Below, in pieces: positions 7,076-44,607 of a stretch of 64,000 nucleotides of DNA. The notes beneath the pieces were generated by a model. That model made no database searches and had not been told where the DNA came from. It saw only the letters and a list, made by a program, of their open reading frames with translations. Every line of letters starts with the position of its first letter. The stretch's first letter is position 1. This DNA comes from a virus. The stretch is taken from the IMG/VR virus record IMGVR_UViG_3300036944_001223, positions 1-64,000 of that record; one strand, given 5' to 3'. The position numbers and the translations under genes were made by a program.

Positions 7076-8263
7076 ATGCCGAAATTAACTAAAACACTGA
7101 TTGATAATTTAAAGCCTGCTGGCTTAGAACAATGGATATGGGATACCGAGCTGGAAGGATTCGGGATCAGAATTCAGGCGTCAGGCAGAAAAGTTTATGT
7201 TATTCGGTACCGAGTTAAAAATGCCAATAAAACTCAACGCAAACAAAACATTGCTCGTTGTAGCGATATTCCTCCTGAAAAAGCAAGAGAGCTGGCCCGT
7301 AAAGTTTTTGCCCAAGTTGCTGAGGGCCTAGATCCTGTTATGGAGCGAAAAAACAAAGTAGAAGCCCCAACTATCAGTGAGATGTGCGACCGCTTCTTAA
7401 AAGAGCACTCACGGCCGTTCAAAAAGCCTCGCAGCGTTGAGCATGACGAAAGTAAAATTAAAAATTACATTAAGCCTCTGGCTGGCGAGCGTAAAGTGGC
7501 GGAGTTTACTAAGGCCGACGTGCTCACGATTCATGGCAGCCTATCAGACAAGCCTGCGACTGCTAACCAAGTATTGGCATTACTCAGCAAGGCATTTAAC
7601 TTAGCTGAAGATTGGGGATGGCGAGAGCAGGGTTCTAATCCTTGTCGTCGAATTAAAAAGTACAAAATTAATGAGCGAGAGCTAATTTTAACTACTCCGC
7701 AAATTAAAGCGTTAAGCAACGCCTTAATATCACTAGAGACCGAAAATAAAATTACTCAGCCAATGGTAAATTTAGTTCGTTTGTTAATGCTGACCGGCTG
7801 TCGATTAAGAGAGATCATGCATGCAAAACTGTCTTGGGTTGATCATGAGCGCTCGCTACTTATATTGCCAGACTCTAAAGTGGGGCAACGAAAGATCCCG
7901 CTAGCTCCGCTTGCAATGGATATCATTAATTCAATACCGGATGGTGAGTGGATGATCCCTAGCAGAGTTAATGGGATCCCTATGGACTCACCCTACAAAG
8001 AGTGGTCAGCGATAAAATCTGCTGCTGATTTGCCTGCAGAGCTAAGATTGCATGACCTACGGCATACTGCGGGCTCACTTGGCCATATGGCTGGGCTCAC
8101 TCAGCAGCAGATTGCGACGCTTTTAGGACATAAGCAGATAAGCACAACAGCTAGGTACCTTCACGGCTACCACGGTGATGGTGAGCGCATAGCTGAGACT
8201 GTTAGTAACGTCATCTCGCTGGCTTGGAGCAATCCAGCAGCTAAATTGGTCGCTGCTATTTAG
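7076..8263 (+). CDS. int: Tyrosine integrase, P4-type
   Basis: 395 residues from ATG 7076 (MPKLTKTLIDNLKP), chosen because GGGCGGAGC precedes it and upstream starts fall in a terminator. N-terminus: DUF4102-type arm-binding domain (IWDTELEGFGIRIQASGRKVYV). Middle: SAM-like core-binding domain with FLKEHSR. C-terminal catalytic domain: TGCRLREI (first Arg), LRLHDLRHTAG (HxxR), LLGHKQ (His) and ARYLHG (Tyr nucleophile). The catalytic set is complete, so the enzyme should be active. It integrates and excises phage DNA, which makes this a temperate phage. I see no tRNA-like attachment core next to it. Confidence 0.95.
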   Translation: MPKLTKTLIDNLKPAGLEQWIWDTELEGFGIRIQASGRKVYVIRYRVKNANKTQRKQNIARCSDIPPEKARELARKVFAQVAEGLDPVMERKNKVEAPTISEMCDRFLKEHSRPFKKPRSVEHDESKIKNYIKPLAGERKVAEFTKADVLTIHGSLSDKPATANQVLALLSKAFNLAEDWGWREQGSNPCRRIKKYKINERELILTTPQIKALSNALISLETENKITQPMVNLVRLLMLTGCRLREIMHAKLSWVDHERSLLILPDSKVGQRKIPLAPLAMDIINSIPDGEWMIPSRVNGIPMDSPYKEWSAIKSAADLPAELRLHDLRHTAGSLGHMAGLTQQQIATLLGHKQISTTARYLHGYHGDGERIAETVSNVISLAWSNPAAKLVAAI

Positions 8264-8271
8264 TCGTGATA
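8262..8271 (+). promoter_or_regulatory. GTCGTGAT motif copy 9 (plus strand)
   Basis: AGTCGTGATA overlaps the integrase TAG stop. It is the only copy in plus orientation and lies upstream of the plus-strand TraR-like gene; an intrinsic terminator at 8288 follows it. See the finding on the late motif. Confidence 0.5.
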
Positions 8272-8287
8272 GCATTATTTTTAAATC

Positions 8288-8316
8288 AAGCCCTAATCAG
8301 GGCTTCTTTTTTATTT
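8288..8316 (+). terminator. Intrinsic terminator after the integrase
   Basis: AAGCCCT and AGGGCTT form a stem around an AATC loop, followed by CTTTTTTATTTT. Confidence 0.9.
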
Positions 8317-8326
8317 TGAGGAAATT

Positions 8327-8530
8327 ATGTCTAATGAAAATCTAGCTCAAGATGTTGAACTAAAAGAATGGGAATTTAACAATCGAGCCAGAAACCCCGT
8401 CGTTAAATTTAGTCAAAAAGATGCTGAATTTGGCCCCGAGTTCTGCGTCAAATGTGATGAAAGCATGCCATTAGTCAGGCGTCAATACGGGTATAAATTG
8501 TGCGTTACATGCAAGTCGAAAGAAGAATAG
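8327..8530 (+). CDS. DksA/TraR-type C4 zinc-finger protein
   Basis: 67 residues, the usual size of phage TraR-like proteins. Two CxxC pairs (CVKCDES at residues 42-48 and CVTCKS near 61) are separated by 15 residues, the C4 zinc finger of the DksA/TraR family; TGAGGAAA precedes the ATG. The family binds in the secondary channel of RNA polymerase and alters initiation without ppGpp. Its stop abuts the stop of the convergent spanin gene with no terminator between. A copy of the late motif lies upstream, so a role in late promoter control is possible but unproven. Confidence 0.8.
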   Translation: MSNENLAQDVELKEWEFNNRARNPVVKFSQKDAEFGPEFCVKCDESMPLVRRQYGYKLCVTCKSKEE

Positions 8531-10560: not shown

Positions 10561-10562
10561 GA

Positions 10563-10883
10563 CTATGCCTTAACCCACATTACTAACGCCATAAAAACGA
10601 TAGCAACAAATAATACTATAGCGGATGCTAGAACAGCTGCTGCCATATTGCCTTTTTCAGTTAAGATGATCAGCTTAGTTAGTTCGATCCTATGAAACAC
10701 GATACGAGATACAACTACGGCAATCCCAGCCATAATTGGTGAAAAAACAGTCCAGTCTACTAGAGTTTTTGCCATAGCAGGGTCAATAAAATACATTACC
10801 AATAACGCAGGAACTATCAGAATTAATGCTGATTTATCAATTAACGCCCTAAGACGTTTACTTAAACTTTCAAATTTACTCAT
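10563..10883 (-). CDS. Putative holin, three transmembrane segments
   Basis: 106 residues from ATG 10883 (MSKFESLSKR), with GAGGG 8 bases upstream. An in-frame ATG at 10898 lies in the terminator stem and is less likely. Hydrophobic segments lie at about residues 21-36 (ALILIVPALLVMYFI), 46-63 and 83-105 (MAAAVLASAIVLFVAIVFMALVMW). It is the first gene of the lysis cassette, right after the tail fibre, and is preceded by a late-motif copy. That position and topology fit a holin; the family is not certain. Confidence 0.65.
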   Translation of the reverse strand: MSKFESLSKRLRALIDKSALILIVPALLVMYFIDPAMAKTLVDWTVFSPIMAGIAVVVSRIVFHRIELTKLIILTEKGNMAAAVLASAIVLFVAIVFMALVMWVKA

Positions 10884-10917
10884 GAAAAATGCCCTCAATT
10901 GTCATTAAGGGCATTTT
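10884..10917 (-). terminator. Terminator after the tail-fibre gene
   Basis: On the minus strand AAAATGCCCT and AGGGCATTTT form a perfect 10-bp stem followed by TC. It sits between the late-motif copy at 10918 and the holin start; the GAGGG in its distal arm also serves as the holin ribosome site. Confidence 0.7.
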
Positions 10918-10928
10918 GTCATCACGAC
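10918..10928 (-). promoter_or_regulatory. GTCGTGAT motif copy 8 (lysis operon)
   Basis: The minus strand reads GTCGTGATGAC, overlapping the TAG stop of the tail-fibre gene and upstream of holin/endolysin/spanin genes. A terminator hairpin follows it. Confidence 0.6.
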
Positions 10929-16616: not shown

Positions 16617-17099
16617 TTAAAATTGAACCACAAGTTCAAATTGTTGACGAATAGTCGGACTTCTATCTATTCTGTCAAAATGTTCAATAGTCAAAATTCC
16701 GCCGGGAGAATCGACTTCAGAAGGCAAAAGATATTCTTGAGAAGGAGGGACTCCGCTTTTCAAAGTAGTCCCAATAAACACCGCAGCTTCACGAATAACT
16801 TCAGTTGGTGAATCTAAAAAATCAAATGAAAACCTCATGTAAAGCCATTTTGTTGGAGTTTCTGAGATCGAGAACCTTCCAGATGGTACATATATCAAAC
16901 CATTAACGTCTGGCACACAATAAGCTACTTGAGACGCTTTTCTTCTACCAAATTCAGCAGTTAGTGATTCTGCGTCTATATTCTCAGGCGGCCTTGATGC
17001 ATCCCAAGACGTATTACCTCGCCCCCATGCCAAGTGAAGCGTTTCATTTTTGATTGCGGTAGCCACGCTTGCTCTTCCGGGGTTAGTTAAAATTGCCAT
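16617..17099 (-). CDS. Baseplate-region protein, unknown family
   Basis: 160 residues with GGAGG 5 bases before the ATG. The sequence includes LHLAWGRGNTSWD, FSFDFLDSPTEVIREAAVF and EHFDRIDRSPTIRQQFELVVQF, a pattern I associate with small conserved phage tail proteins without a named function. It is the first gene of a motif-headed operon leading through the DUF4815-like protein to the tail fibre. Confidence 0.6.
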   Translation of the reverse strand: MAILTNPGRASVATAIKNETLHLAWGRGNTSWDASRPPENIDAESLTAEFGRRKASQVAYCVPDVNGLIYVPSGRFSISETPTKWLYMRFSFDFLDSPTEVIREAAVFIGTTLKSGVPPSQEYLLPSEVDSPGGILTIEHFDRIDRSPTIRQQFELVVQF

Positions 17100-17124
17100 A
17101 CGTCCTCCATTTCACAACAGTCTT

Positions 17125-17134
17125 GCATCACGAC
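17125..17134 (-). promoter_or_regulatory. GTCGTGATGC motif copy 7 (tail-fibre operon)
   Basis: Minus strand GTCGTGATGCAA, in the 52-base gap upstream of the gene starting at 17099. CATAAT lies 5 bases upstream of the motif. Confidence 0.7.
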
Positions 17135-17151: not shown

Positions 17152-18288
17152 TTAATTTCCTAGCCAATTTATATCAGACCAAATCCCAGACTCAACCCAA
17201 GTGTAACCAAGTCTTTGACTTATAAGCATGCTTGCAGAATGAGGAGAAGAAGAATCAAAGACAAAATCATTCCATTGGCGATTATCCCAACCCCCATCTT
17301 GCCAAGTAAAATTCCTGCCATTAACGTAAGTTCCATTACTAGATATTCCAAAATAATAATTTCTAATACACTGGCTTTCTGATAGGACAAGATTATCACT
17401 TAACTTACAATCATCAGCAGACTTCACTAGATTTGAATGCTGAGCTTGTATCCCCATAAGAACTGTACCGTCGATTGATGCATCGACGAAAGTTGACGGC
17501 CGTATTTCAGCATCAAGCACTATAATTCCTGAGGCTTTATTTCGCATTATAATGGGAATTACATCAGACCAATCTAATGGAATTAATGAAACAGGACGAA
17601 TTAAGTGATAACCAACTTTTTCACCATTATATAACTTTTTAGTGCCAGAGAGCTCAGAGTCATCAAGCCTGAACATTTCCCCCCAAGGCTCTTCGATAAT
17701 GACTCTTTTACCTGTCTCATCAAAAATAGCTTGCTCAATAGCAAAAGCATTTACTCTTTCCCTAAAAGCTTCCTTAGGTATCTGATTGGAATAATCAATA
17801 TCTATTTGGTTTTGTGATCTTTTATGATTATAAAGGTTTCCCCATAAATCAAGCCATTCACCTTCTGCTGAAGATATAACCATCTGTTTTATGGCTTCAT
17901 CAATTTGTTTTTTTGCAATTTTAAGCTCTTTGCTATAAGCCCCAAAAAATGCATATATTAAATTAGTGAAACCATATAAAAAACCAGATTCGTTTTGATT
18001 TCCTAATCCATCAGTTAACACCGTTGAATTAAAATCTAAGAAATCACTTGACACCGAGCCGACTTCAAATCCATCAGTTTGTAATTGAACGATCAATTCA
18101 GCAATTGAAAGCTCTGGCAGACTATAATTGAATAATTGAACGCCATCACTGACAGATAGGGCTTCATTACTAACGGACCAACTGCAGCTGCCAAGCGGAT
18201 TTCTCAACCTAAATGCCATTTGATCATAAGGACTGGTATCAAATACGTCTTTATGAGGATATTTTAAAAGCTTCTGTAAAGTAGCCAT
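17152..18288 (-). CDS. Baseplate protein, P2 gpI/tail protein I-like
   Basis: 378 residues, coupled to the baseplate J gene by TAATG. Residues about 100-215 contain KKQIDEAIKQMVISSAEGEWLDL and EAFRERVNAFAI, typical of tail protein I/wedge proteins that pair with gpJ. The C-terminal 100 residues are Trp/Asn/Ser-rich (FTWQDGGWDNRQWNDF) and look like a surface or fibre-contact extension. Role: baseplate wedge assembly. Confidence 0.65.
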   Translation of the reverse strand: MATLQKLLKYPHKDVFDTSPYDQMAFRLRNPLGSCSWSVSNEALSVSDGVQLFNYSLPELSIAELIVQLQTDGFEVGSVSSDFLDFNSTVLTDGLGNQNESGFLYGFTNLIYAFFGAYSKELKIAKKQIDEAIKQMVISSAEGEWLDLWGNLYNHKRSQNQIDIDYSNQIPKEAFRERVNAFAIEQAIFDETGKRVIIEEPWGEMFRLDDSELSGTKKLYNGEKVGYHLIRPVSLIPLDWSDVIPIIMRNKASGIIVLDAEIRPSTFVDASIDGTVLMGIQAQHSNLVKSADDCKLSDNLVLSESQCIRNYYFGISSNGTYVNGRNFTWQDGGWDNRQWNDFVFDSSSPHSASMLISQRLGYTWVESGIWSDINWLGN

Positions 18289-19382
18289 TAAATCTCCGAC
18301 AGTAAAATAGTACCGGGCTTAAGCACTTCAAGTTCAGCACAGACAATATTGCCGGTAATATTTAATACTACGGTATCAACACCTATTACGCTGGAAATAT
18401 CGGTTTCTAAGGAGCCAAGATAAAGAACTGTCCCCGGATTAACGTTTGATAATGTAGTTGCGAAAATCACAGTGATCTGCTGAGTTATAGCGCCATCAAG
18501 TACATATCCATTCAGCATTTTTATTTGAGCAGTTAACGGTATAAGTCTTTCGGTCATAGGTAAAGCATCTACTCTAATGCCTCCGGAACGATAGCCTGGT
18601 ACAATTTCCTGAGTAAGCTGATCCCTTTTCCCATCAAGAAGAATTTGAGCATTAGCAATTAATTTTTCGGAAGGTAATCCATTAGATGAATAGAGATAAA
18701 TCCTTACATAACCAGGATTCTCAACTAAACCAGTTTTTGTTACATATTCAATGATATTGCCAACTTCATCAAGTACGACAGCCTGCTTAGCCCCATAAAG
18801 GCAAGCAGAATTTGTCCCTCTCGACAACGCAGCAATGTACTCAGAGAACCTTGATTCTTGCTCATTATCAGTTTCAATATTGGCGCCATTATCAATTGCA
18901 GAGTTACTTACGCTATAACCCGCACCAAAAATAGGACTCTCACTAATAGCCCCAGCAGAAACGTTGTATGATGCACCAACAGCCGAGGCTTGGACTGGTA
19001 TAATGCAAGATATTTCTCCAGCCAAAAAAGTCACTTCTGCCGTGCTTAAATATAAACGACCATCAGTAGTCCTAAACTCTGAACCAATTAATATGACTAA
19101 GTTTTCTGTTTGAGGCACATCAGCTTCGATATAAACAAAACCGCGCGCAAATTTCGCTGGCAGCTTAGAGAAATTAAAAGACTTAAATGTGGCCACAGGT
19201 ATAGCTTCTCGTAAACCTGTGAAAAATTGCAAGTATAGCTCTTCAATTTCTACAGCCGGGGCTTCTATCAGTGTTCTTGAAGCCGAACCCGGTATCCAAT
19301 CTGTGATCTTTTTAGTCACGCTTCTAGCATGATTTATCATTGACGCCGTGATGGACGCAAAGTCCTTGATCTGGAAAGCCAA
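18288..19382 (-). CDS. Baseplate J-like wedge protein
   Basis: 364 residues. The start at 19382 is TTG (MAFQIKDFASI), with GGTGG just upstream and no nearby ATG that keeps the conserved N-terminus. Features of the baseplate J family include SRTLIEAPAVEIEELYLQF, GFVYIEAD, VSAGAISESPIFG and SRGTNSACLYGAKQAV. Role: wedge subunit linking hub and tail fibres in contractile tails. A late-motif copy lies 40 bases upstream. Confidence 0.85.
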   Translation of the reverse strand: MAFQIKDFASITASMINHARSVTKKITDWIPGSASRTLIEAPAVEIEELYLQFFTGLREAIPVATFKSFNFSKLPAKFARGFVYIEADVPQTENLVILIGSEFRTTDGRLYLSTAEVTFLAGEISCIIPVQASAVGASYNVSAGAISESPIFGAGYSVSNSAIDNGANIETDNEQESRFSEYIAALSRGTNSACLYGAKQAVVLDEVGNIIEYVTKTGLVENPGYVRIYLYSSNGLPSEKLIANAQILLDGKRDQLTQEIVPGYRSGGIRVDALPMTERLIPLTAQIKMLNGYVLDGAITQQITVIFATTLSNVNPGTVLYLGSLETDISSVIGVDTVVLNITGNIVCAELEVLKPGTILLSEI

Positions 19383-19423
19383 GATGCCACCATTTATGAG
19401 ATAAGATTTTATCAGTCAGTCTG

Positions 19424-19433
19424 ACATCACGAC
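19424..19433 (-). promoter_or_regulatory. GTCGTGATG motif copy 6 (baseplate J operon)
   Basis: Minus strand GTCGTGATGTCA, overlapping the end of the gp25-like gene and upstream of the baseplate J gene. Confidence 0.65.
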
Positions 19434-20044
19434 AGCTGGCTAATATCTATCTTAGCGCCCTCAATGGCTTCCGCTGTTGCAGAAATCCTCATAACATCAC
19501 CGACTGATTCGGCTGAAGAAAATGTGACTACTGATACCCTATAGTCAGCTTCTAAAGCAGATTTTACATATTCTGCCCCTAATGCTCCCGCCGCGGGGCC
19601 AGCAACAGATCCTTTGAGCTTCCAAACTAAGCACCCATATTCTGGATGCCTGTTTAGTTGGCCTTTCGTCGTAGTTACACGATGCTTTAGTTGCTGAGAT
19701 AAATTTAATGTTCCGGCTGCAATAGATAGATCGCCAGTTTCATCAACAGTTAGCAACTTATTCGATAATAAACAGTCCCTCTCGTAAACTTGGCCTTTTT
19801 CAGCCTCGTCGGTGTAGACGCCAACAGGGGCCGGGACTTTTATTAATGAGCCAGTTATTTTGGTTGACTCTGTAACAAGTGATAGATCATCAGTTAAGTA
19901 TGGGTAAACCAATTGATTTAACCACACTAACTCTGCCCATCTATTTGCGTCACCGAGCTCTCGTGATGCCACCGACTGTAAGGTATCAGATATGAAAGTT
20001 TCGACTAATCGATAATTTGGCTCACTTCGTTCAAATTCACTCAT
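19427..20044 (-). CDS. gp25/GPW-like baseplate wedge protein
   Basis: 205 residues. The N-terminal part (ANRWAELVWLNQLVYPYL) looks LysM-like. The C-terminal half (NRHPEYGCLVWKL, then VKSALEADYRVSVV) fits the gp25-like baseplate domain. Role: baseplate wedge next to gpJ and gpI, in the standard gene order. It overlaps its upstream neighbour by ATGA. Confidence 0.65.
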   Translation of the reverse strand: MSEFERSEPNYRLVETFISDTLQSVASRELGDANRWAELVWLNQLVYPYLTDDLSLVTESTKITGSLIKVPAPVGVYTDEAEKGQVYERDCLLSNKLLTVDETGDLSIAAGTLNLSQQLKHRVTTTKGQLNRHPEYGCLVWKLKGSVAGPAAGALGAEYVKSALEADYRVSVVTFSSAESVGDVMRISATAEAIEGAKIDISQLS

Positions 20045-21222: not shown

Positions 21223-21234
21223 ATTCAAATTCTC

Positions 21235-21244
21235 GCATCACGAC
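21235..21244 (-). promoter_or_regulatory. GTCGTGATGC motif copy 5 (hub/gp25 operon)
   Basis: Minus strand GTCGTGATGCGA, in the 32-base gap between the spike gene and the hub gene. Its proximal edge is about 12 bases from the start codon. Confidence 0.7.
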
Positions 21245-26735: not shown

Positions 26736-27158
26736 TTAAATTTGAGCACCGACAACATCTAGTGCATTAAACTGTGCTGACTGCATTACAATCGCATGTT
26801 TTGACACATCAATGTCGCCAGAAGCATAAGAACAGCCGAGGTATTTTCTCAGCAAAGTTCCATCATCTTTGTCAAACATTTCAAAGTCAAAAACTAGGCC
26901 TTGCAGCACACCATCGCCATTTTCCATGGCCACGCCGGCTTTGATCAGTGAGCCTTTGTTTAGCACCATGGCACTAACACTTAATGAGTGTCTAGCCATC
27001 GTTGGCACGTACTCTTGAGCGTGAATGTCACCAATACCACTTGCTGGCTCGGGGCTATAATCATCATTAGAGCGAACAGATTGGAGAAGCCCAACCTGCT
27101 TGCCGTCCAGCACAACGGCAATTCGGTTGCCTGTGCGGGTTTTTAAGTTGCTTTTCAT
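26736..27158 (-). CDS. Tail tube protein
   Basis: 140 residues. TGAGGAAC precedes the ATG. It lies between sheath and chaperone genes. Sequence features (NRIAVVLDGKQVGLLQSV, HSLSVSAMVLNKGSLIKAG, YLGCSYASGDIDVSKHAIV) fit a beta-sandwich tube protomer. Assignment rests on size and invariant gene order (sheath, tube, chaperones, tape measure). Confidence 0.75.
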   Translation of the reverse strand: MKSNLKTRTGNRIAVVLDGKQVGLLQSVRSNDDYSPEPASGIGDIHAQEYVPTMARHSLSVSAMVLNKGSLIKAGVAMENGDGVLQGLVFDFEMFDKDDGTLLRKYLGCSYASGDIDVSKHAIVMQSAQFNALDVVGAQI

Positions 27159-27200
27159 TTCTGTTCCTCAGGAAAGATTTTTGCATGCTCATTGATGTTG

Positions 27201-27210
27201 GCATCACGAC
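27201..27210 (-). promoter_or_regulatory. GTCGTGATGC motif copy 4 (tail tube/tape measure operon)
   Basis: Minus strand GTCGTGATGCCA, lying just after the sheath terminator and 42 bases before the tube gene. TATAAC is 4 bases upstream. Confidence 0.75.
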
Positions 27211-29223: not shown

Positions 29224-30054
29224 TTATGTACCCGCAGTAATTTCAACGTCATTAATTTTATTAACTCTTCCGCCGACTCTTACCGGCGCTATGCAGGAAA
29301 AGCTGCACACTACTTGATACATGTTCACGTCATATTCGCCGTTGATTGCATCAACATCTTGCATCCCGACGTTTACTTGCTCAATGCCATTGGATGATAA
29401 AACGGTAAGATTGGCGACAATGATCCGTCTTAAAGCTTTTCTCAACTCTATTCGTTCATCACTGTTAGTAGACCATGCCACTATCGACAACTGCACGTCA
29501 GCAAGCCACCCCTCTGACTCATACCAGTCTAGATCAATAGCATCATACTCATCACCGCCTATGTCTTCGCCAATACCTCGGGCTCCAGAGGTTTCGCTCA
29601 GCATATGTAAAGTGATCAATGGGAATCGCAGCTGCTGCTCAAGCGATGGCGGGGCAGTATATACTTGCACGTATCCGATATCGGCAATAATGTTCCCGCG
29701 TTCAACTTCGACTTTCATCCCCGCTTCTATTCTTTCTCTCATTAATGAGAGCACGTCGGTAGAATGCTCTTCATATGTTGAAGTTGGAGTACCAGAAGCT
29801 GTAACGCTAGAATTCCATGCAACCCCATCAAAGTAATAAACCTTGTAAAAAGCCATAACTTCATTAATGAGAAATGCGGTGTCGAGAAAAACCTTATCGT
29901 CACCCTCGTATGCGACTATTGCGCTGCTATCATTCTCATCAACAAACGAGTCTGAGCCCTTCCTTAACACTCTCCAATACATGGATCCTGCTGGCGGGCT
30001 AATGAACACTCTTAATGCGTTGCCAATTGGTACTGGCTGAATCATTGCAATCAT
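29224..30054 (-). CDS. Tail completion/terminator-like protein with N-terminal Ig-like segment
   Basis: 276 residues from ATG 30054 (MIAMIQPVPIGNAL). Upstream in-frame codons would run through the late motif and into the divergent gene. Residues about 1-85 look like a fibronectin/Ig-like beta sandwich (SPPAGSMYWRVLRKG, FYKVYYFDGVAW). The C-terminal 180 residues (LMRERIEAGMKVEVERG, FPLITLHMLSE, DVQLSIVAWSTNSDERIELRK) fit a tail terminator/completion fold. The position at the head-proximal end of the tail genes agrees. Confidence 0.6.
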   Translation of the reverse strand: MIAMIQPVPIGNALRVFISPPAGSMYWRVLRKGSDSFVDENDSSAIVAYEGDDKVFLDTAFLINEVMAFYKVYYFDGVAWNSSVTASGTPTSTYEEHSTDVLSLMRERIEAGMKVEVERGNIIADIGYVQVYTAPPSLEQQLRFPLITLHMLSETSGARGIGEDIGGDEYDAIDLDWYESEGWLADVQLSIVAWSTNSDERIELRKALRRIIVANLTVLSSNGIEQVNVGMQDVDAINGEYDVNMYQVVCSFSCIAPVRVGGRVNKINDVEITAGT

Positions 30055-30064
30055 GACAATGAGT

Positions 30065-30094
30065 TTGGCATCACGACAAGCGTGACGGCATAAT
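30065..30094 (+). promoter_or_regulatory. Sigma70-like promoter for the inverted gene at 30122
   Basis: TTGGCA (30065-30070), an 18-base spacer and CATAAT (30089-30094) on the plus strand, 27 bases before the ATG at 30122. It overlaps the minus-oriented late motif at 30068-30077. Confidence 0.5.
30068..30077 (-). promoter_or_regulatory. GTCGTGATGC motif copy 3 (sheath operon)
   Basis: Minus strand GTCGTGATGCCAAAC, ending about 13 bases before the ATG at 30054; no ribosome site is visible in between. Confidence 0.75.
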
Positions 30095-30121
30095 GCAGAA
30101 AACACCGGATGGATCTTTATC

Positions 30122-30949
30122 ATGGCACAAGTTAATTATTCAATATCATTCGATGTAGGCTCTCAATTTGAACTTAACGCCGAGATATATCAGCAGATAT
30201 TCCCGCTTTTAAACCAAGCTGTTAAAGCTGTAGCCCAACAGACTGCCAGCAATTGGCAGCAATCAATATATAAAGCAAAATTATGGTCTGTTGAAAAAGA
30301 TAAGTATGCTGGCAGCATAACTTGGTCGATGACTGGTGCGTTTACTGCCATAGTTGAAACCAGTTATCGATATGCGGAACAAATAGAAAGTGGCCGACCA
30401 GCTCGAGACCTGAAGGCCATGCTAGGCACCAGCTTAAAAGTGCGCAGGTCTAAGGCTGGTAATCGTTACCTTTATATCCCATTCCGACATAATATCCCCG
30501 GTAGCGACGCGATAGGTCAGGCTATGCCTAAAAGCGTTTATGCTATGGCTAAACAAATGACGCCATCTGTTATTACTGGGATAAAATCAAGAGAGTCCGG
30601 AACTGGAGCCTATAACATTCACTCAAAAGGAAAAATGATGGTGCCTCAGAACGTCTATGCTTGGGGTGACAAACTACCATCAGGAATGGGGCAAAAGATA
30701 AAACCTGAGCATCATAGCGATCCTTATGCTGGGATGGTTAAGTTTAATACCAGCACACCCGGCGGAGCTAAAAGCAGCACTTATCTAACATTTAGAGTGA
30801 TGAGCGAAAAATCTCAGGGCTGGATTGTACCTGCTCAACCTGGTCAACATATAGCTAAGAATGTAGCAGATGAAATGCGTCCAAAAGCTGAGAACGCCTT
30901 TTCCAAAGCTATATCTATGAGTTTGTCAAAAATAAAAGCTGGCGAGTAG
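30122..30949 (+). CDS. Inverted neck/tail-completion-like structural gene
   Basis: 275 residues on the plus strand inside the minus-strand late region. Sequence: NWQQSIYKAKLW, EKDKYAGSITWSMTGAF, YAEQIESGRPARDLKAML and YLYIPFRHNIPGS. This resembles HK97 gp10-like/minor neck proteins that usually sit between connectors and tail completion genes, exactly where this gene lies but reversed. It has its own promoter candidate (30065) and shares a bidirectional terminator (30931). Function as a virion protein is inferred. Confidence 0.65.
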   Translation: MAQVNYSISFDVGSQFELNAEIYQQIFPLLNQAVKAVAQQTASNWQQSIYKAKLWSVEKDKYAGSITWSMTGAFTAIVETSYRYAEQIESGRPARDLKAMLGTSLKVRRSKAGNRYLYIPFRHNIPGSDAIGQAMPKSVYAMAKQMTPSVITGIKSRESGTGAYNIHSKGKMMVPQNVYAWGDKLPSGMGQKIKPEHHSDPYAGMVKFNTSTPGGAKSSTYLTFRVMSEKSQGWIVPAQPGQHIAKNVADEMRPKAENAFSKAISMSLSKIKAGE

Positions 30950-35526: not shown

Positions 35527-36410
35527 TGTCGCAAGCTCCGTGTAGTAAGACTTCGTTTCAAATCGCCAATAAAGCGATCCACCCACTCTGTGGCCTCGTC
35601 GGGCTGCAGATTGAATTGTTTAACAGAGAACGTTATTAATCCGTCCCCGGTCATTTGTAATGGCTGCCCTTCAATCATGCAATTTGACAGCTTGTCTCTA
35701 AAATCAAAATATGATTGTGGAGTACCGTCAAGCGACTGCATTCTGATAGCGCTGCCACCCGATAAATTAGCCATATCAGATCCGTATCCAGCCTCGAGAG
35801 ACTTTGACATAACGAATCCGTTTAAAGATTTGGCAAAAACTGCAACAGGGGCTGTTTGAGCTTCAGGAAGATGCTGATTAACTGGCGTGCGGCTCAATGC
35901 TAAATTTGTCCATCGAACTTTTGTTACTACAGCGACTTTTTCATGAGTTCGCGGATCTATGACTAGACTTTTAGCTAAAACAGAACCACCAACAGAGGGG
36001 TACCATCTAGCCGGAGGGTTCAAAGCCGTCATTGATTCCCAAACCATATTTGCATTTCTAGCCAACTCGCCATCGCCCTTGTATAGCTGTGCCTTAACAA
36101 AGGTGGTTTCGCCCTTTACTACCACATCAACAGGTCTGCCTATCTCGAAAGACATGGGGTTTACAATACCCATTTTGGCGCCGATAAGAGTGTAATGATC
36201 TAGGTCGATGTTACCAAATTTTAAAAAGTTAGCAGCGCTTTCTTCAAGCGCTTTAGCGAGCACTCGCTCGCCCTGCTGATCAACGCCTTCGTTGCTGGCT
36301 TCTAAATAGATGAAGCGTTCCCCACCCTCTTCTTTGGGCGTGGCTTTCAGCAGTGTATCAACGCTGAAAAAATCCGGTATATCAGCTAATAGCTGTTCGT
36401 CTTTGTTCAT
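35523..36410 (-). CDS. XkdF-like prohead protease
   Basis: 295 residues. The N-terminal 180 residues fit the XkdF-type U35 serine protease: FIYLEASNEGVDQQGERV, FGNIDLDHYTLIG (catalytic His region), ALNPPARWYPSVGGSVLAKS and KVRWTNLALSRTPVN. The start (ATG 36410) has no ribosome site; a late motif ends about 10 bases upstream. Residues about 198-223 nearly repeat the N-arm of the major capsid protein (19 of 26 identical). That could be a scaffold, tethering or self-cleavage segment. C-terminus is helical and basic. Confidence 0.8.
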   Translation of the reverse strand: MNKDEQLLADIPDFFSVDTLLKATPKEEGGERFIYLEASNEGVDQQGERVLAKALEESAANFLKFGNIDLDHYTLIGAKMGIVNPMSFEIGRPVDVVVKGETTFVKAQLYKGDGELARNANMVWESMTALNPPARWYPSVGGSVLAKSLVIDPRTHEKVAVVTKVRWTNLALSRTPVNQHLPEAQTAPVAVFAKSLNGFVMSKSLEAGYGSDMANLSGGSAIRMQSLDGTPQSYFDFRDKLSNCMIEGQPLQMTGDGLITFSVKQFNLQPDEATEWVDRFIGDLKRSLTTRSLRQ

Positions 36411-36422
36411 GGGATTAGTGTG

Positions 36423-36432
36423 GCATCACGAC
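36423..36432 (-). promoter_or_regulatory. GTCGTGATGC motif copy 2 (protease/capsid operon)
   Basis: Minus strand GTCGTGATGCCACAC, ending about 10 bases before the protease ATG. Confidence 0.75.
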
Positions 36433-36741: not shown

Positions 36742-39700
36742 CTATAATAATGACTGGCCAGATGCGGCCATTTTCTTTCTTGCGCTTATGTAGCCGGCAA
36801 CGCCTGAATCATCCAAACCATCCATTGGGTCAGCCATCATATCCTTTAGCGCATATTTCTTCATGAGTCGGTCGTATGCTTTACGCTCTTCAGGGTGATC
36901 ACCATGAAGGTCGATCAGCTCAATTGCATTTTTCTGACCGATACGATCGATCCTTGCTTGTCGCTGGCTATGCGTTTTTGCTGTCTGGCTAATATCATGC
37001 TGGATCAAATACTGCCCTGATTGTAAATTCATGCCAACGGCGCCCGCATCAGAAGCAATCAGGATATCAGCTTGAGCCTCACCCTTCTCAGGATTGAATA
37101 GTTTACGCTTAGCGTCCTTATCCTTAGCACTGTCAGATCCAGTAATAGTGACCACTTTTTTACCAATGGCCTCCATCGCTTGGCGGTACTGCTCAACGCT
37201 GGCTTTATTTCGCGCAAATATCACGCCCTGCTTACCGTTTCTTTGCTTTACCATTTCAACAGCATGAGCAACTTTAGCATTGTCAGGGTGAGTGTTAATT
37301 ATTTTGTTCACTGCCGAAGATCTGAGTATTCCTAAGCTGTTCTGTATGCCTTTAGCAATATTCTCATGCTCTGACTCTGGTACCCCATCGAATGAGTTGG
37401 GACTGATCGCTTTAGCCGCTGCGATATCAACCTTGCCCGTAGTTCTCGCTGCCCTCGCTTTGATCATATGCTGAGATAACTCATCTAATGCCTTTTTCTG
37501 CCCAGCTGAGAGCGGCACCTTTTCCGTTAGCCGGCTACGAGCAACATCTGGAGAAATTGACGTAGGAAATACATACCGAGCCATTTCTCGTTTAAGGGCT
37601 TGCTTACTCGCAATCGTGTCAGCGCCATATTTGCGCATAAACTCATTGCGATCACTGTATTTCTCAGGATCCATTTTCTGCAGCAAAGAATGGATCTCAC
37701 TAGAGTCGTTTTTCACTGGGTCGCCGCTCGCATAAACGTGATACGGAGTATTATGCCCGACGGCCTCAACAACGTTAGCTAGACTTGAGTTCTCCTTACC
37801 TGCTCGATTTAACGTATCGTGAGCCTCATCAACAAAGGAAGCGTCAAAGTTAATGCCTTCCTTCTTCATAGTATCTGCGGCCCACTGCTTGCGCTCAGCC
37901 GTGCTCATACTGCCAATCTTAGACGTCATCTCGGACTCGCTCACCCCCGCATGCTGAGATGCTAGATGGATCATGTCGTCACGGAATGATTGATGCGTCA
38001 TTACAGCAATATGCGTTTCAGGATCTTTATACGCCGCAATTCGTTCTGCTTGACTTGCACCAGGCTGAATATGCGTCTTGAATTTTCCAGCCTCCAATAA
38101 ACGCAGCGCCTCGCCGGAGAACTGGCCCTGCACAATACTTGGGACCAGCATGATCGAGCGCTTAACTTTGCCAAGCCCACTGAGATGAGCATGGGCACCC
38201 AACATTATGTTAGTTTTACCGCTACCAGCGCCAGCTGCCAACGCCACGCGCTTATTTGCGGCGATCAGTTTTATAGCTCGTTGCTGAGGGGCATACTTGC
38301 CAGACATGCTGATCCCCCATAACTTTGTGGGCTGATTAGGCTTAAAGTTTTGCCCCACAATCCCCATCATTCCTGCAATTTGATTTTCTGCCTCGGTACC
38401 AAGCGTCACTTTAGATGAGTCGGCGCCAGTGATCCCGTTAAAATCAATTCCATTGCGCAACTGGCCTTTGCCGGCTTTCAATGGTGATGACGGGTTTAAT
38501 TTATTGTGATGCTGCACAAACGAGTTAGATAATTTCGACCTTACCATATCCTGAGCTGTTGCATAGGCATTGGCTGCGCCGCTCATCTGGCCGACAAAAT
38601 CTTTCCAACCCATACCAGTAGAATCAGTGAAATGGTCTCTCAATACCCGCTGATCGGTTTTACTTAGCTCACCAATCTGCTTATACGCAGTCACACCTTC
38701 AGGATGTTCCGACAATGCTCGATGAAGAGCATCAACAGACTTTTGATTGACCTCAAATTTTTGAGAATTCAACTCTGGACTATCTGCTTCTGCTTGCTCA
38801 ACAATGCCGGGCTTCACTTCCATAGCTAAATCAGGTCTGTTGTCCACGCCAAGAGGTAGCCAGCCATCCTCGTCTTGATCGCCTCGTATTATTGACAGAT
38901 TCCGCTTAACTTGCTGAACATCATCACGAGAAACTGGCTTAGCCAACCTATCCATGCCGTCGGCATTCACCTTTAAGAACGTGTCGCCACCAACCCGCTC
39001 AAGCTCATAGTCACCAGGCATTAAGCCTATCGCCCGAATCTGTTTAATTGCCTGCTGCGCCCCGATTTGACCTAGTGACACCTCAAAGTGATCTTGCTTA
39101 CCCTGCTTTAATGCCATAACCAATGAAGCATTAGCCTCCATCTCACCAAGTGATTGCCCTAATATCCGCTGAGCATCACCAATGGCAGCGCGACGGCGTC
39201 CATTGAGCTCTTGAGCTAGAGACAGTTCAGCTCCATTGGTTGCCTCAGCGGATATCTCTATATCCTTGGCTGCATCAGTGAGCTCTCTGGCTTTTTTCAG
39301 GCTCTCCGTGCTGGTTTGCATGTAATGGTTTAAATGCCAATCCTGCATTCCTGCAGTAACATGCCCGAGCTCTTCAGGAGATAAATCCGATTGCAGTCTC
39401 CGCGCCAATATCTGCGATGCGCCAGCAATACCCAAAACGTCGACTACAGACCGATCAACTAGCGCTTCGCCGCCAACAGCAAGGGCCAATGAATTGATTG
39501 AATTATAAGCCCCAACTCCAATATGACCGCCTAATGTATCCTCTGGCGAACCGCCAGCGATCCGGTGGACTTCAGATAAAAAAGCTTTTGTCTGAACAGT
39601 ATTTAGCTCGCTTTCAAGATCCTTAGCCATCTTCGCATCAATATCAGCGTCAGATGCCTCGATGACAAACGCCTTAGGTTCAGCTTTTGCTTTATCTATC

Positions 39701-40629
39701 TCAGAGTTAGCCGATCTTGCCGCCTTTTCAATTAAAGCAAGTTTCTTACCTTCTTTGAGTATATCAACAGCGTCTTTAGCACTGATCAAGGAAAAATCAG
39801 CCTCTGGTGCGGCAGGCTCTTTAACGCCATCAAGCTCCTTTTTGAGTAGATCTGCTGATTCTTTTTTAGCAAAAATAGCCTTCTTCTGCTCGTCAGTCAT
39901 GCCCGCCAGCTTAATTTGGTCTGCCTCTGCCTGCAATGCCTCATCTGTAAGCCCAGAAGCCTCAGCGCGAGCCTTGTAGTCTGGATTGAACCCTAGGCCA
40001 GCTTTTGCTTTTTTTGAGGGGTCTAGGTCGGACACTGAGAGACTGGCAGGATCATCGCTGAATAAAGGCACCTCACCGATGCCAGCTTCCTTACGCGCGG
40101 ACGGATCATTAACAAGTTTATCCTGGCTTTGTTTAATGACCATTTTCGCGCGTCTAAGAAGGTTCGAATGATGCTGGTTTCTTAGTTTATTAATTGCCGC
40201 ATCAGACAGGTGGGAATACTCAGCATCATTAAACTCAAGATCCGCCTCATCCCACCCAACTTTTTTACCTACCGCACTAATAACTGATTTTTCAGCAGCT
40301 GTTTTTTGCGCTTTAATGTCTTTTCTGGCTGCTTGCTTTGCATCATGAATGCCGGCATCTTTATCCGCGCTAATCTGCTCTTTTCGTTTAGCTTTAGCCT
40401 CATCTTTCTTTTGCTTTGATTCTTTAGCGTACTCGCCTTTTGATTTAACGTTCCGAAGCTTCAGATAATTTAAACTGCCACCAGCGCCGCCAATTACTCG
40501 AGCTGATCCGTCAGGCTGAGGCTGAATAAGAACAGCCTGACCTTTACCTGAGCCATTACCGCCGTGAACAGTGATCCAGTGTGCGTCCTCAGGGATAGCG
40601 GACGCTTTAGTTAAGATAACCTTTTTCAA
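36742..40629 (-). CDS. Polyvalent head protein with SNF2-family helicase
   Basis: 1295 residues from a TTG start at 40629 (AGGGG 8 bases upstream; no nearby ATG). Residues 1-60 form a small glycine-rich beta domain (WITVHGGNGSGKGQAVLI, ARVIGGAGGSLNYL) seen at the N-terminus of large phage polyvalent proteins. A long helical, charged region follows. The helicase occupies about residues 780-1290: AGSGKT (Walker A), VDEAHD (Walker B), GVIFARNKASVEQYRQ, and AVGMNLQSG with QRQARIDRIGQ (SNF2 motifs V-VI). Encoded in the head operon after MuF, so it may be packaged and injected to protect or remodel incoming DNA (inference; compare P1 DarB). Confidence 0.8.
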   Translation of the reverse strand: MKKVILTKASAIPEDAHWITVHGGNGSGKGQAVLIQPQPDGSARVIGGAGGSLNYLKLRNVKSKGEYAKESKQKKDEAKAKRKEQISADKDAGIHDAKQAARKDIKAQKTAAEKSVISAVGKKVGWDEADLEFNDAEYSHLSDAAINKLRNQHHSNLLRRAKMVIKQSQDKLVNDPSARKEAGIGEVPLFSDDPASLSVSDLDPSKKAKAGLGFNPDYKARAEASGLTDEALQAEADQIKLAGMTDEQKKAIFAKKESADLLKKELDGVKEPAAPEADFSLISAKDAVDILKEGKKLALIEKAARSANSEIDKAKAEPKAFVIEASDADIDAKMAKDLESELNTVQTKAFLSEVHRIAGGSPEDTLGGHIGVGAYNSINSLALAVGGEALVDRSVVDVLGIAGASQILARRLQSDLSPEELGHVTAGMQDWHLNHYMQTSTESLKKARELTDAAKDIEISAEATNGAELSLAQELNGRRRAAIGDAQRILGQSLGEMEANASLVMALKQGKQDHFEVSLGQIGAQQAIKQIRAIGLMPGDYELERVGGDTFLKVNADGMDRLAKPVSRDDVQQVKRNLSIIRGDQDEDGWLPLGVDNRPDLAMEVKPGIVEQAEADSPELNSQKFEVNQKSVDALHRALSEHPEGVTAYKQIGELSKTDQRVLRDHFTDSTGMGWKDFVGQMSGAANAYATAQDMVRSKLSNSFVQHHNKLNPSSPLKAGKGQLRNGIDFNGITGADSSKVTLGTEAENQIAGMMGIVGQNFKPNQPTKLWGISMSGKYAPQQRAIKLIAANKRVALAAGAGSGKTNIMLGAHAHLSGLGKVKRSIMLVPSIVQGQFSGEALRLLEAGKFKTHIQPGASQAERIAAYKDPETHIAVMTHQSFRDDMIHLASQHAGVSESEMTSKIGSMSTAERKQWAADTMKKEGINFDASFVDEAHDTLNRAGKENSSLANVVEAVGHNTPYHVYASGDPVKNDSSEIHSLLQKMDPEKYSDRNEFMRKYGADTIASKQALKREMARYVFPTSISPDVARSRLTEKVPLSAGQKKALDELSQHMIKARAARTTGKVDIAAAKAISPNSFDGVPESEHENIAKGIQNSLGILRSSAVNKIINTHPDNAKVAHAVEMVKQRNGKQGVIFARNKASVEQYRQAMEAIGKKVVTITGSDSAKDKDAKRKLFNPEKGEAQADILIASDAGAVGMNLQSGQYLIQHDISQTAKTHSQRQARIDRIGQKNAIELIDLHGDHPEERKAYDRLMKKYALKDMMADPMDGLDDSGVAGYISARKKMAASGQSLL

Positions 40630-41790: not shown

Positions 41791-41816
41791 ATAATAATTT
41801 ATCCTCACAATAATGA

Positions 41817-42004: not shown

Positions 42005-42006
42005 CC

Positions 42007-42273: not shown

Positions 42274-42509
42274 TTTAGCTCCTCACCTAACTTAAACTGA
42301 AATAAATCAGGATTATCAGGATAGACCAAGGGCCTAAACGTACCCTCTAAAGCAGAAAAAAAATCAAAAACTATATCAAGAGCCACATGCTTAGTCTGAA
42401 CTTTAAACTCACCAGATGGATCCCCGATATATACTGGCACGCCATAATAGGAACCGTGATGAGTGAATCCTAACTCTTTAGCTTTTTTTACTGTGATATA
42501 ACCCAGCAT
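42270..42509 (-). CDS. Small conserved phage protein in the portal operon
   Basis: 79 residues (ITVKKAKELGFTHHGSYYGV, VYIGDPSGEFKVQTKHVALD). I recognise the pattern from portal-proximal genes of other phages but not a function. It starts 1 base after the stop of the DUF6527-like gene. Confidence 0.65.
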   Translation of the reverse strand: MLGYITVKKAKELGFTHHGSYYGVPVYIGDPSGEFKVQTKHVALDIVFDFFSALEGTFRPLVYPDNPDLFQFKLGEELK

Positions 42510-42510
42510 T

Positions 42511-42867
42511 TCAAGCCTCTATCTCTGGCAGATCTACAGTTTTACCAGCAAGAATATGAGTGCAATCACCCAAAAACTGAATCTTCCCATCAGTAACAAA
42601 TGAGTGACATATTCCACACTCAAAACCGTCTCTTTCTTCATCAGGATTTTCTTCAAAATAAGTACACCAACATGGTTCACCTTTTTCCCAGTGTTTAGCA
42701 AAATGCCCGTAACTAGCTAATATAGAAGGCTGAAATGTTGGCCTGTCAAAATTGCCATTGAAAGACCATGCTGGTCCGCTGGATCCTCCAATGTTTAACG
42801 AATGGTACATTTTGCAACCTGGACATTTAAATGATGCTATATTTTTAGTTATTTTAACTTTGCTCAT
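42511..42867 (-). CDS. DUF6527-like zinc-binding protein
   Basis: 118 residues. CPGC (residues 14-17), H and later C residues (CWCTYFEEN, CGICHSFVTDG) with the characteristic end GKIQFLGDCTHILAGKTVDL fit DUF6527, a small phage-frequent zinc-ribbon family of unknown role. Overlaps the portal gene end by ATGA. Confidence 0.75.
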   Translation of the reverse strand: MSKVKITKNIASFKCPGCKMYHSLNIGGSSGPAWSFNGNFDRPTFQPSILASYGHFAKHWEKGEPCWCTYFEENPDEERDGFECGICHSFVTDGKIQFLGDCTHILAGKTVDLPEIEA

Positions 42868-44585
42868 GGCTCTGGCTTCCAGATTGGCAACCCAAAAGAC
42901 TTGGCCATTTGATCGCCATCATCTTCTTGATCTTGCTTGTCATCAGGTTTGCTTTCAGGATCTTCTTCGTTAGAAGATTTGTTTTCATCTTTAGGATCTT
43001 GTTGGTCTTTAGGATCTTGCCCAAAATCTCCGCCGCCATCTGGATTGCCGTAGTCCTCGCTGGACGATGCTATTGATTGCATATACGCGCCCATTAAATT
43101 CTGGTTCAACGGAGCGTTGTTTAGCACCTCGTCTTTGATCTCATCCCATCCGCGAACCTTTCGAGCTTCACCCCATGTTAGCAGCGTAGTTTCTTCATCC
43201 CACTGTTGTTTTGCATCGGTTTCGTCGAGACCTGACCAGCGGAATAAGTATTTATCACTAAACTCAGCAACAACGTAGTCAGAAAAAACATCTTCAAAAT
43301 AAGACAGAAGAGGGCGAAGGCCCTTATCTTTAGAGTTAATCAGCTTCTCTTCTGTATCCGATCCAGATAACGAGCTTGCGCCATTGGTGAAACTCTCGAA
43401 ATTTATCTCATCAGGAGCCATGCCGTAGATCGCGCAAATAATTGATGTTAAAAACGTCATCCATTTGGAGAACATCATTTCATTTACGTCGACACCAAAA
43501 TTCTCGAAACTTGCTTTTGACTCTTGGTTTTTACTGACCATTACAGGCAGAGTCCAAGCGTTATTGATCCCCTTCACCATCGAGTTCCAATAACGCTTAA
43601 AGGCGCTCATATCGTCTTGGCTATAATCACCAGACAAGTGAAGTAAGCCCTTAGGGATCGCATTGGAGTCAAAATATTTGTTGTTGTACGTCATGGCATT
43701 CAGGAAGCCGGTCACAACTTTTACTAATAGCTCTGTTTCTGACATGCCGTAGCCGCCGACCATGACATCAGTACGCGGGTTCCTTGGCACATAGATCAGG
43801 TCGTCATACGTGTAAGCCGCTCTGATTTGGCCTTGGGCAACCTGCAAGGCAAATAGTTCGTCATCGCCTTGGTAGCCTTCCTCATTACACAGTCGTATCG
43901 TCGCGCCATCGACAGCATACATGCCGTCCATCCCTTTAGACTTATCGCGCTTGTATTCAGTCTCGATCGCAGCGCTATCCATTGTTAGGCTGTCTCGAGT
44001 AAGTTTGGCCACAAAGTTAGAGAAATTATCACGTTTAAGTCTTGCGCGTTGACGCGGGTTATTTTCCCATCCGCAATTTGTAAAAAAGCTTTCAAGCAGA
44101 ACAATACTCTTTTTTTCCGCCTCACCTAATTTCGCAGAGGGATCTTTCGACTTGATATTAAATCCTGGTCCTTTACCGCCTTCTGATACGCGGCAAAAAC
44201 GCCTTAATTGGCGTTGGCGAGTGAGTATTACAGCGGAAAGAATCGGCGTCTGATCGACCATTGTTCGCATCATATCAAACGAGAATGCACTATTTTTCTC
44301 GTACCACTCACCCATCATTTGGACGCGGGTATCATCGAGATATAACGATTGCATACCGGGCTGCCCAGTGGCGATAGCGCGGCTAGGAAAAGGGATCACA
44401 TTGGGCTTAGATAAAGCTTTAGTAAACTGCTGATCCTGATATTGCTCCGCAACATAGCGGACCAGTTCCGTCATATTGGGAACAGTCGAGGGCATCGCGT
44501 CTTTTTGAGCTTCGCGCAATGCATCCTGCCGCTCATCTTGTGGCGCTGCAGGGTTATGTGAAACTTCTAAGGCTTTATCTGTCAT
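42864..44585 (-). CDS. Portal protein
   Basis: 573 residues. Portal features: LTRQRQLRRFCRVSEGGKGP, SNFVAKLTRDSLTMDSAAIE, DDLIYVPRNPRTDVMVGGYG, PKGLLHLSGDYSQDD, and the helix around SLSGSDTEEKLINSKDKGL. The C-terminus is a long acidic linker ending AKSFGLPIWKPEP. The first gene of the head operon; its ATG lies about 11 bases after a late motif and has no clear ribosome site. Role: dodecameric DNA gate at the capsid vertex. Confidence 0.9.
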   Translation of the reverse strand: MTDKALEVSHNPAAPQDERQDALREAQKDAMPSTVPNMTELVRYVAEQYQDQQFTKALSKPNVIPFPSRAIATGQPGMQSLYLDDTRVQMMGEWYEKNSAFSFDMMRTMVDQTPILSAVILTRQRQLRRFCRVSEGGKGPGFNIKSKDPSAKLGEAEKKSIVLLESFFTNCGWENNPRQRARLKRDNFSNFVAKLTRDSLTMDSAAIETEYKRDKSKGMDGMYAVDGATIRLCNEEGYQGDDELFALQVAQGQIRAAYTYDDLIYVPRNPRTDVMVGGYGMSETELLVKVVTGFLNAMTYNNKYFDSNAIPKGLLHLSGDYSQDDMSAFKRYWNSMVKGINNAWTLPVMVSKNQESKASFENFGVDVNEMMFSKWMTFLTSIICAIYGMAPDEINFESFTNGASSLSGSDTEEKLINSKDKGLRPLLSYFEDVFSDYVVAEFSDKYLFRWSGLDETDAKQQWDEETTLLTWGEARKVRGWDEIKDEVLNNAPLNQNLMGAYMQSIASSSEDYGNPDGGGDFGQDPKDQQDPKDENKSSNEEDPESKPDDKQDQEDDGDQMAKSFGLPIWKPEP

Positions 44586-44597
44586 AGGGAAATCTTG

Positions 44598-44607
44598 GCA
44601 TCACGAC
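44598..44607 (-). promoter_or_regulatory. GTCGTGATGC motif copy 1 (portal operon)
   Basis: Minus strand GTCGTGATGCCAAG, about 11 bases before the portal ATG; TACAAT lies 8 bases upstream. Confidence 0.75.

Follow-up and report, generated by a model that had tools for sequence, protein, structure and literature searches.

Probable late promoters with a GTCGTGA box, and a candidate Cys-rich activator, in a family of contractile-tailed phages

Motif copies and late genes in the window

The window, i.e. the whole 64,000-nt stretch of viral DNA analysed, was scanned on both strands for exact copies of GTCGTGAT. Nine were found, eight on the minus and one on the plus strand, against 0.97 expected; none of 100 shuffled sequences contained nine or more. 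The same nine copies had been picked out in the sequence-only reading, with positions correct to within one base, and the extended forms noticed there were also present, GTCGTGATGC in six copies and GTCGTGATGCCA in four. A tenth, weaker copy lay back to back with the copy at 30077, in divergent orientation. In all likelihood, the word forms the upstream half of an entire late promoter that serves the head, tail and lysis genes of the phage. The predicted promoters and associated features were as follows (+1, predicted start point).

44592-44607, minus: late promoter GTCGTGATGCCAAGAT; +1 at 44585, the A of the portal ATG, predicted leaderless
36417-36432, minus: late promoter GTCGTGATGCCACACT; +1 at 36410, the ATG of the head maturation protease, predicted leaderless
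30062-30077, minus: late promoter GTCGTGATGCCAAACT; ATG of the head-tail adaptor orthologue at +2 (30054), predicted leaderless
30079-30094, plus: weaker divergent promoter AGCGTGACGGCATAAT; precedes the opposite-strand gene 30122-30949
27195-27210, minus: late promoter GTCGTGATGCCAACAT; 30-nt leader, then the major tail protein orthologue 26736-27158
21229-21244, minus: late promoter GTCGTGATGCGAGAAT; +1 at 21222, the ATG of a baseplate/virion protein, predicted leaderless
19418-19433, minus: late promoter GTCGTGATGTCAGACT; 29-nt leader, then the baseplate wedge (J-like) gene 18288-19382
17119-17134, minus: late promoter GTCGTGATGCAAGACT; 13-nt leader with GGAGG, then gene 16617-17099
10913-10928, minus: late promoter GTCGTGATGACAAAAT; precedes the gene in the holin position, which starts at 10883
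10884-10920, minus: terminator-like hairpin with a T-run; -19.4 kcal/mol for read-through transcripts, -1.8 for those begun at +1
8263-8278, plus: late promoter GTCGTGATAGCATTAT; overlaps the integrase stop codon
8327-8530, plus: small zinc-finger gene, TraR/DksA-like (67 aa), downstream of the 8263-8278 promoter

The unit from the 36417-36432 promoter ran on to the major capsid gene, and that from 30062-30077 to the sheath. As had been claimed, all nine copies were intergenic or on a stop codon, such as that of gene 19427-20044, overlapped by the 19418-19433 promoter. The copy at 30077 fell within an ORF (29224-30123) in appearance only, the start of this ORF being a mechanical upstream ATG; orthologues suggested 30054 as the true start. 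The plus-strand copy at 8263 preceded a real gene (8327-8530).

The claim that the motif heads every late operon was too strong, as the terminase gene (48358-50964) had no copy. The copies at 21244 and 17134 indeed headed units, but these had been wrongly labelled hub and fibre: the first precedes a baseplate/virion gene of phrog_1011, and the second another such gene, of phrog_1394.

Register of the -10 and occurrence in related phages

The consensus of the predicted promoter was GTCGTGA-Y-N-N-nAnnnT, in which the spacing between the box and a sigma70-like -10 is constant and a -35 is lacking. Counted from the predicted +1, the GTCGTGA box spans -22 to -16 and nAnnnT -12 to -7, followed by six nucleotides and a start base that is usually A. 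In nine phages, nAnnnT was found at offset 3 in 85 of the 119 late-strand GTCGTGA copies, and at the other offsets in 0-15. The predicted +1 was A at 48 of 86 sites. The features expected of a sigma70 -10 were all observed, namely A at -11, T at -7, a fixed register and a purine at the predicted start. TTGACA was not enriched at the 68 strict sites of eight phages.

Of these 68, 66 were on the late strand, and a check for many intragenic or randomly oriented copies turned up no such pattern. The divergent pair at 30062-30094 indicated that the motif tracks gene orientation and not the genome strand.

When the late region was compared by megablast with 50,697 phage records, nothing matched, and relatives were gathered by tblastn with the portal. 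Plain 8-mer enrichment was informative in the window alone; the relatives required the 7-mer with the fixed -10. The proposed count in related phages revealed many such promoters at matching orthologous genes, in phages infecting gamma-, beta- and alphaproteobacteria. Across most of the family the promoter was present at the orthologues of portal, protease, adaptor, J and holin; those of capsid, sheath and hub never had it. A promoter of at least 15 bits preceded 68 of 75 portal genes. An exact 16-mer scan of viral contigs was near chance and uninformative (7 matches, 4 in reversed sequence). Our literature search found no description of a GTCGTGA box, and the papers on Mecenats66 and Touem01 did not mention promoters.

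The fixed -10 register, the predicted start base, the gene orientation and the orthologous recurrence all supported a late promoter element or activator site, one of the possibilities raised at the outset. Another was a one-sided stoperator. Mycobacteriophage L5 has numerous stoperators, which are asymmetric, directional and located in the gaps between genes, and the present sites share these properties. Stoperators, however, are not known to have a -10 in register or start codons at a constant spacing. The site described here is fused to a -10 (85/119 in register) and a predicted start point, with start codons at a fixed distance, which disfavoured this reading.

The motif might still be a repressor site of this general kind, an operator laid over promoters to keep late genes off in the lysogen. 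The directional sites in short intergenic gaps and the integrase present in some relatives would agree with this, and an operator may also overlap a -10. On the other hand, a fixed register, a weak -10 and no -35 resemble an activator-dependent promoter, and particular late genes carry the site in one phage after another, with very few copies off the late strand. We consider repression very unlikely.

The box might instead be read by a sigma factor other than the main one, either an alternative factor or one encoded by the phage, with no activator involved; this appeared very unlikely. The preference for C at -12 (52 of 86 sites) is unusual for sigma70. However, A at -11 with T at -7 is the sigma70 -10 signature, the box is too near to be a -35, and a scan of proteins from part of the core families revealed none that was sigma-like.

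Start codons and hairpins at the predicted start point

Among 286 distinct sites, the start codon was at +1 in 94, at +2 in 37 and at +5 to +9 in none. About half of the sites are thus predicted to give leaderless late mRNAs, in which the RNA would begin at the AUG or one base earlier and be translated without a leader. In portal genes with the promoter, the ATG was at +1 or +2 in 61 of 68. A Shine-Dalgarno match of at least 4/6 was found in 12% of genes predicted to be leaderless, 28% of random sequences and 55% of leadered genes.

Most of the remaining sites had leaders of 9-70 nt. Here the count of helices of at least 6 bp was hardly in excess (87 versus 71.8 in chimera controls, maximum 79), and a duplex-energy test was therefore used. 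The stretch from -8 to +3 paired with +7 to +40 at -8.63, compared with -6.11 +/- 0.19 when permuted. The complementarity peaked at -8 to +1 and was gone from +1 onward. At most leadered sites, the hairpin would thus be possible in read-through RNA only. At the 10913-10928 promoter, the predicted +1 (about 10906) was within the 5' arm of the terminator hairpin, and at many other sites the start point would likewise remove this arm. The only transcripts to escape termination, or at some sites the masking of their ribosome-binding site, would then be those made from the promoter. The leaders of TraR genes were contrary to this rule: they retained an intact hairpin, as does that of the 8263-8278 promoter, with a T-run.

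Several of the hairpins at promoters were terminator-like, with T-runs, and phage genomes are compact. The hairpins may therefore be mere terminators of upstream genes, and the leaderless layout a result of compactness. This would concern function only and leave the promoter unaffected. We regard it as rather doubtful, since the complementarity is centred at -8 to +1 and lost from +1 on, and compactness alone does not explain the cluster of start codons at +1 and +2 with none at +5 to +9.

Leaderless starts together with hairpins split by the start point suggested that late genes would stay silent in the read-through RNA of their neighbours. Only RNA from the phage-activated promoter would be translatable, being either leaderless or freed from the read-through hairpin. 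We tentatively propose that this coupling of promoter choice to translation is a previously undescribed late-gene switch, spanning phages of alpha-, beta- and gammaproteobacteria.

Candidate activator, small plasmids and known systems

The absence of a -35 and the poor -10 suggested that the promoter depends on a phage protein made early. An uncharacterised Cys-rich (zinc-type) protein of ~175 aa, early-encoded in relatives, is the best candidate and probably the activator. It would bind GTCGTGA and hold host RNA polymerase at the promoter, with the main sigma factor contacting the -10, and transcription would then begin at several dispersed sites.

The protein has two Cys clusters (C22, C34, C53, C56, H62; C79, C82, C95, C98; alignment A3). 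Among 50,697 phage records, nine encoded it, and all nine are from this phage family. The 64.5-kb record to which the window belongs did not encode it; the genome is probably ~90 kb long, with some 25-30 kb of it missing from this record, and the presence of the protein in the window's phage is deduced from relatives. Pfam gave no match even at E 1, hence no Ogr_Delta domain, and no PHROG was significant. A fold search with its AlphaFold model (pLDDT 86) gave no PDB match. DNA binding is putative, as no known family or fold was matched.

Viral contigs picked by the Cys-rich protein had the motif in 45 of 47 cases, with 437 matches versus 5 in the reversed control. Those picked by the portal had the motif in 20 of 20, and the protein in all eight of at least 76 kb. 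In Mecenats66 the homologue was diverged (33%), and no more than about three promoters could be recognised. Within one phage family such co-occurrence is partly shared ancestry, so its independence rests mainly on plasmids.

Eight small plasmids were examined, mostly close relatives of one another, plus L031. The Cys-rich protein was the sole member of 82 core phage families present in all eight. Each carried 2-4 promoters, versus 0.00-0.04 in shuffles; an HTH/TerS-like gene was a weak match. A phage-type candidate late regulator thus occurred together with predicted late promoters on a small replicon, as expected of a satellite, and with their own copy of the putative activator these plasmids may be satellites of the phages. 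One carries a KPC carbapenemase transposon.

The boxes could be real late promoters served by another activator (a small HTH_26 protein, a 115-aa zinc-ribbon protein or a TraR/DksA-like protein), the Cys-rich protein having some other early role. HTH_26 and the zinc ribbon are likewise conserved across the phages, and TraR is of a known RNA polymerase-binding type. However, HTH_26 and the zinc ribbon were not found in the promoter-bearing plasmids, where the Cys-rich protein was, and fHe-Yen8-01 and phiT5282EW have promoters without TraR. This alternative seemed unlikely. TraR/DksA-like and small HTH proteins were rejected as first choice, being missing from some promoter-bearing phages or plasmids. 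The zinc-ribbon gene adjoins the Cys-rich gene.

Taken as a whole, a switch linking promoter choice to translation, a new family of Cys-rich activators and plasmids that are likely satellites form a possible reading, which we hold with less than even confidence. Contractile-tailed phages of ~90 kb are a large group that has received little study, and the promoter definition and candidate regulator would make their late operons readable from sequence. The predicted leaderless expression of structural genes, conserved family-wide in Gram-negative hosts, is an unusual case. The small plasmids form a class that has the candidate late regulator and its promoters in common with these phages, and phage particles may carry them.

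P2 Ogr and P4 Delta are small Cys-rich (zinc) phage late activators, and there the satellite has its own homologue, as the small plasmids have here. Ogr sites are near -55, whereas the GTCGTGA box is at -22 to -16. Phage mRNAs without leaders have been described before (PMC5312081). In T4 middle promoters (MotA/AsiA), as here, a box particular to the phage takes the place of the -35, and sigma70 remains in use (PMC7403470); the MotA box, however, is at the -35 position, AsiA is required and the proteins are others. Middle and late promoters of Thermus phage P23-45 use the host sigma factor and are of the extended -10 class (PMC7403470), but they have no GTCGTGA box and act through Gp39 displacing sigma region 4.

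The closest analogue is the P1 late promoters, which are dispersed, have a box near -22 and a -10 hexamer but no -35, and need a small early activator, Lpa (P1 record annotation, PMC8198154). The likeness is in architecture only, the box and activator being unrelated. The P1 box, AAGTGAYTT/A, lies at -25 to -17, 4 nt from the -10, and GTCGTGA 3 nt from it. Lpa (gene 10; 150 aa) matched phrog_1704 at 7.6e-85 and lacks the Cys clusters; hhalign of alignment A3 against it indicated no homology (probability 0.1%, E 0.59). None of the three P1 promoters read was leaderless, whereas about half of the sites are predicted to be so here.

Motif copies and predicted promoter architecture

An exhaustive scan of the window found GTCGTGAT nine times, eight on the minus strand and one on the plus strand (shuffles, 0.97). 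The positions listed in the sequence-only reading were right to within one base. Its claim that six copies extend further, and four further still, was borne out (GTCGTGATGC in six, GTCGTGATGCCA in four), as was the statement that every copy is intergenic or overlaps a stop codon (9/9).

The window makes up most of a 64.5-kb viral record. By portal protein, its relatives were nine phage records at 58-73% identity. These are contractile-tailed phages, several with an integrase:

Aeromonas, Yersinia and Enterobacter phages: ST4, fHe-Yen8-01 and phiT5282EW
Pseudomonas phages: Jeremy, Dolphis and Touem01
Bordetella phage PHB04 (one phage, two records) and Morganella phage Mecenats66

Because the relatives' genomes are all 86-96 kb, the window is probably about two-thirds of a genome. 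Between its portal and protease genes lies a gene for a 1295-aa protein (36742-40629, minus strand), related to a large helicase gene of PHB04.

When the GTCGTGA copies of nine genomes were aligned, nAnnnT lay exactly 3 bases 3' of GTCGTGA in 85 of 119 late-strand copies (other offsets, 0-15). Base 8 of the aligned motif was nearly always C or T, and the commonest base 7 positions past the hexamer was A. We read the nAnnnT block as a -10 hexamer (A-11, T-7) with A at +1, which places GTCGTGA at -22 to -16. GTCGTGA is then half of a predicted promoter. No -35 was found, TTGACA showing no enrichment anywhere upstream of the sites. In eight non-redundant phages, 66 of the 68 strict sites (GTCGTGAYNNNANNNT) were on the late strand. 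Composition was ruled out as the cause of the pattern, because the relatives span 43 to 66% G+C.

Genes behind the predicted promoter

In an orthologue comparison, the promoter stood upstream of the portal, protease, head-tail adaptor, J-like baseplate wedge and holin-position genes in most phages that have them, of a baseplate/virion gene in 5/8 phages and of a small baseplate gene in 5/6. The terminase gene had it in ST4 and Touem only, and it was never directly upstream of the capsid, sheath or hub genes.

An opposite-strand gene of the head-tail block (30122-30949, plus strand) had its own weaker copy in reversed orientation; this copy and the adaptor promoter face away from each other within 30062-30094. 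The same divergent pair was present in ST4, Jeremy, PHB04, Touem, T5282 and fHe-Yen8-01. The plus-strand copy at 8263 precedes a 67-aa TraR/DksA-like gene (8327-8530, plus strand), and such a gene also follows a promoter in ST4, Jeremy, Touem and PHB04. The orientation of the putative promoter thus tracks the genes, not the genome strand.

The 30122-30949 gene, of unassigned function, is conserved in 8/8 relatives, mostly with the weak divergent promoter. Among the relatives, GTCGTGA promoters also precede genes for very large proteins annotated as ADP-ribosyltransferase (L008:38099-41632, minus strand; L010:31560-38000, plus strand).

Start positions were taken from the sequence register. In the window, the A of the ATG coincided with the inferred +1 in the portal and protease genes and one baseplate/virion gene, and the adaptor ATG was at +2. 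Among portal genes of viral contigs with upstream DNA, 68/75 had a promoter scoring 15 bits or more; the ATG coincided with +1 in 42 of these and with +2 in 19. All sources together gave 286 distinct strict sites. Start codons coincided with +1 at 94 of them and with +2 at 37, and 9 more lay no further than one base from these positions; no start codon occupied +5 to +9, and 117 sites had leaders of 9-70 nt. Shine-Dalgarno-like matches (4 of 6 bases) preceded 12% of the putatively leaderless genes; the figure was 28% for random positions and 55% for genes with leaders.

At leadered sites, bases from about -8 to +3 were complementary to +7 to +40, with a mean duplex energy of -8.63 versus -6.11 +/- 0.19 when partners were permuted. 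Forty-one sites fell below -10 kcal/mol, versus 10 permuted (maximum 18, 200 permutations). The complementarity peaked at -8 to +1 and was lost from +1 onward. A cruder helix count barely exceeded controls (87 vs 71.8, maximum 79). The complementarity suggested a hairpin split by the start, which would form in read-through RNA and not in RNA started at +1. The clear case in the window was the copy at 10928 (read-through RNA, -19.4 kcal/mol with a T-run; started RNA, -1.8). At PHB04 702 and fHe-Yen8-01 21889, the read-through hairpin would instead hide the ribosome-binding site.

The TraR leaders were the exception, the whole hairpin being downstream of +1. The window's TraR/DksA-like unit (8263-8530, plus strand) combines a late promoter with this intact leader hairpin, likewise in four relatives. 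Attenuation at that hairpin is possible.

A candidate activator and its distribution

The candidate is a Cys-rich protein of about 175 aa. It has two Cys clusters, and its gene stands outside the late block, in ST4 at the presumed control region. By tblastn it was present in 9 of 50,697 phage records, exactly the family of the window's phage, with a diverged copy in Mecenats66. It had no significant match, by sequence or fold, in Pfam, PHROGs, NCBIfam or PDB. In Mecenats66 (L017/L018), with its diverged homologue, no more than about three promoters could be recognised (protease, adaptor, holin). The 8-mer GACTACCG is enriched in this phage (14 vs 0.68).

In IMG/VR, 47 contigs encoded the protein and 45 carried the strict pattern (437 matches in the 47, versus 5 for the reversed control). 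Contigs selected by portal alone had the pattern in 20/20. Those of at least 76 kb encoded the protein in 8/8, and those without it were fragments of at most 55 kb. Protein and pattern also occurred together on several alpha- and betaproteobacterial contigs and on L029, a phage-like plasmid from Rhodovastum, an alphaproteobacterium. The first 50 kb of this 112-kb plasmid (R. atsumiense RHOApe) hold terminase, portal and other window-family genes.

Small plasmids offered an independent test: about 44 of them, non-mobilizable and from Serratia, Escherichia, Citrobacter and Enterobacter, also encode the protein. Eight were examined (L023-L028, L030, L031; 11-14 kb, with one 23-kb form, L025, carrying an inserted Tn4401 with KPC-3). 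They are mostly close relatives of one another, L031 being a distinct type. Each had 2-4 promoters scoring 17 bits or more (shuffles, 0.00-0.04). Of 82 core phage protein families, the Cys-rich protein was the sole member present in 8/8; the other matches, an HTH protein (6 plasmids) and a primase (3 plasmids), were both weak. This co-occurrence is the strongest evidence tying the candidate activator to the promoter. Other genes on the plasmids include primase/VapE-like genes and recombinases. We suggest that these small Enterobacterales plasmids are candidate satellites of the phages.

Proposed mechanism and known systems

The sequence-only reading had offered a promoter element, an activator site or a stoperator. 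Activation would be favored over repression, because the -35 is missing and the sites stand at late genes. In the proposed scheme, the Cys-rich protein, made early, would bind GTCGTGA at -22 to -16 and recruit the host's RNA polymerase to a weak -10. The late genes would be transcribed from many dispersed starts, the position of each either allowing leaderless translation of the RNA or leaving it short of one hairpin arm, and read-through RNA would be silenced.

Pfam did not place the Cys-rich protein in the Ogr/Delta family. The late promoters of P1 are alike in layout, with a box near -22, a -10, no -35 and an early activator, Lpa. However, the box of P1 reads AAGTGAYTT/A and stands four bases from the -10 (three for GTCGTGA), and the Cys-rich protein is not related to Lpa. 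Judged by these features, the GTCGTGA system is not a member of the P1 late system but resembles it in its predicted working.
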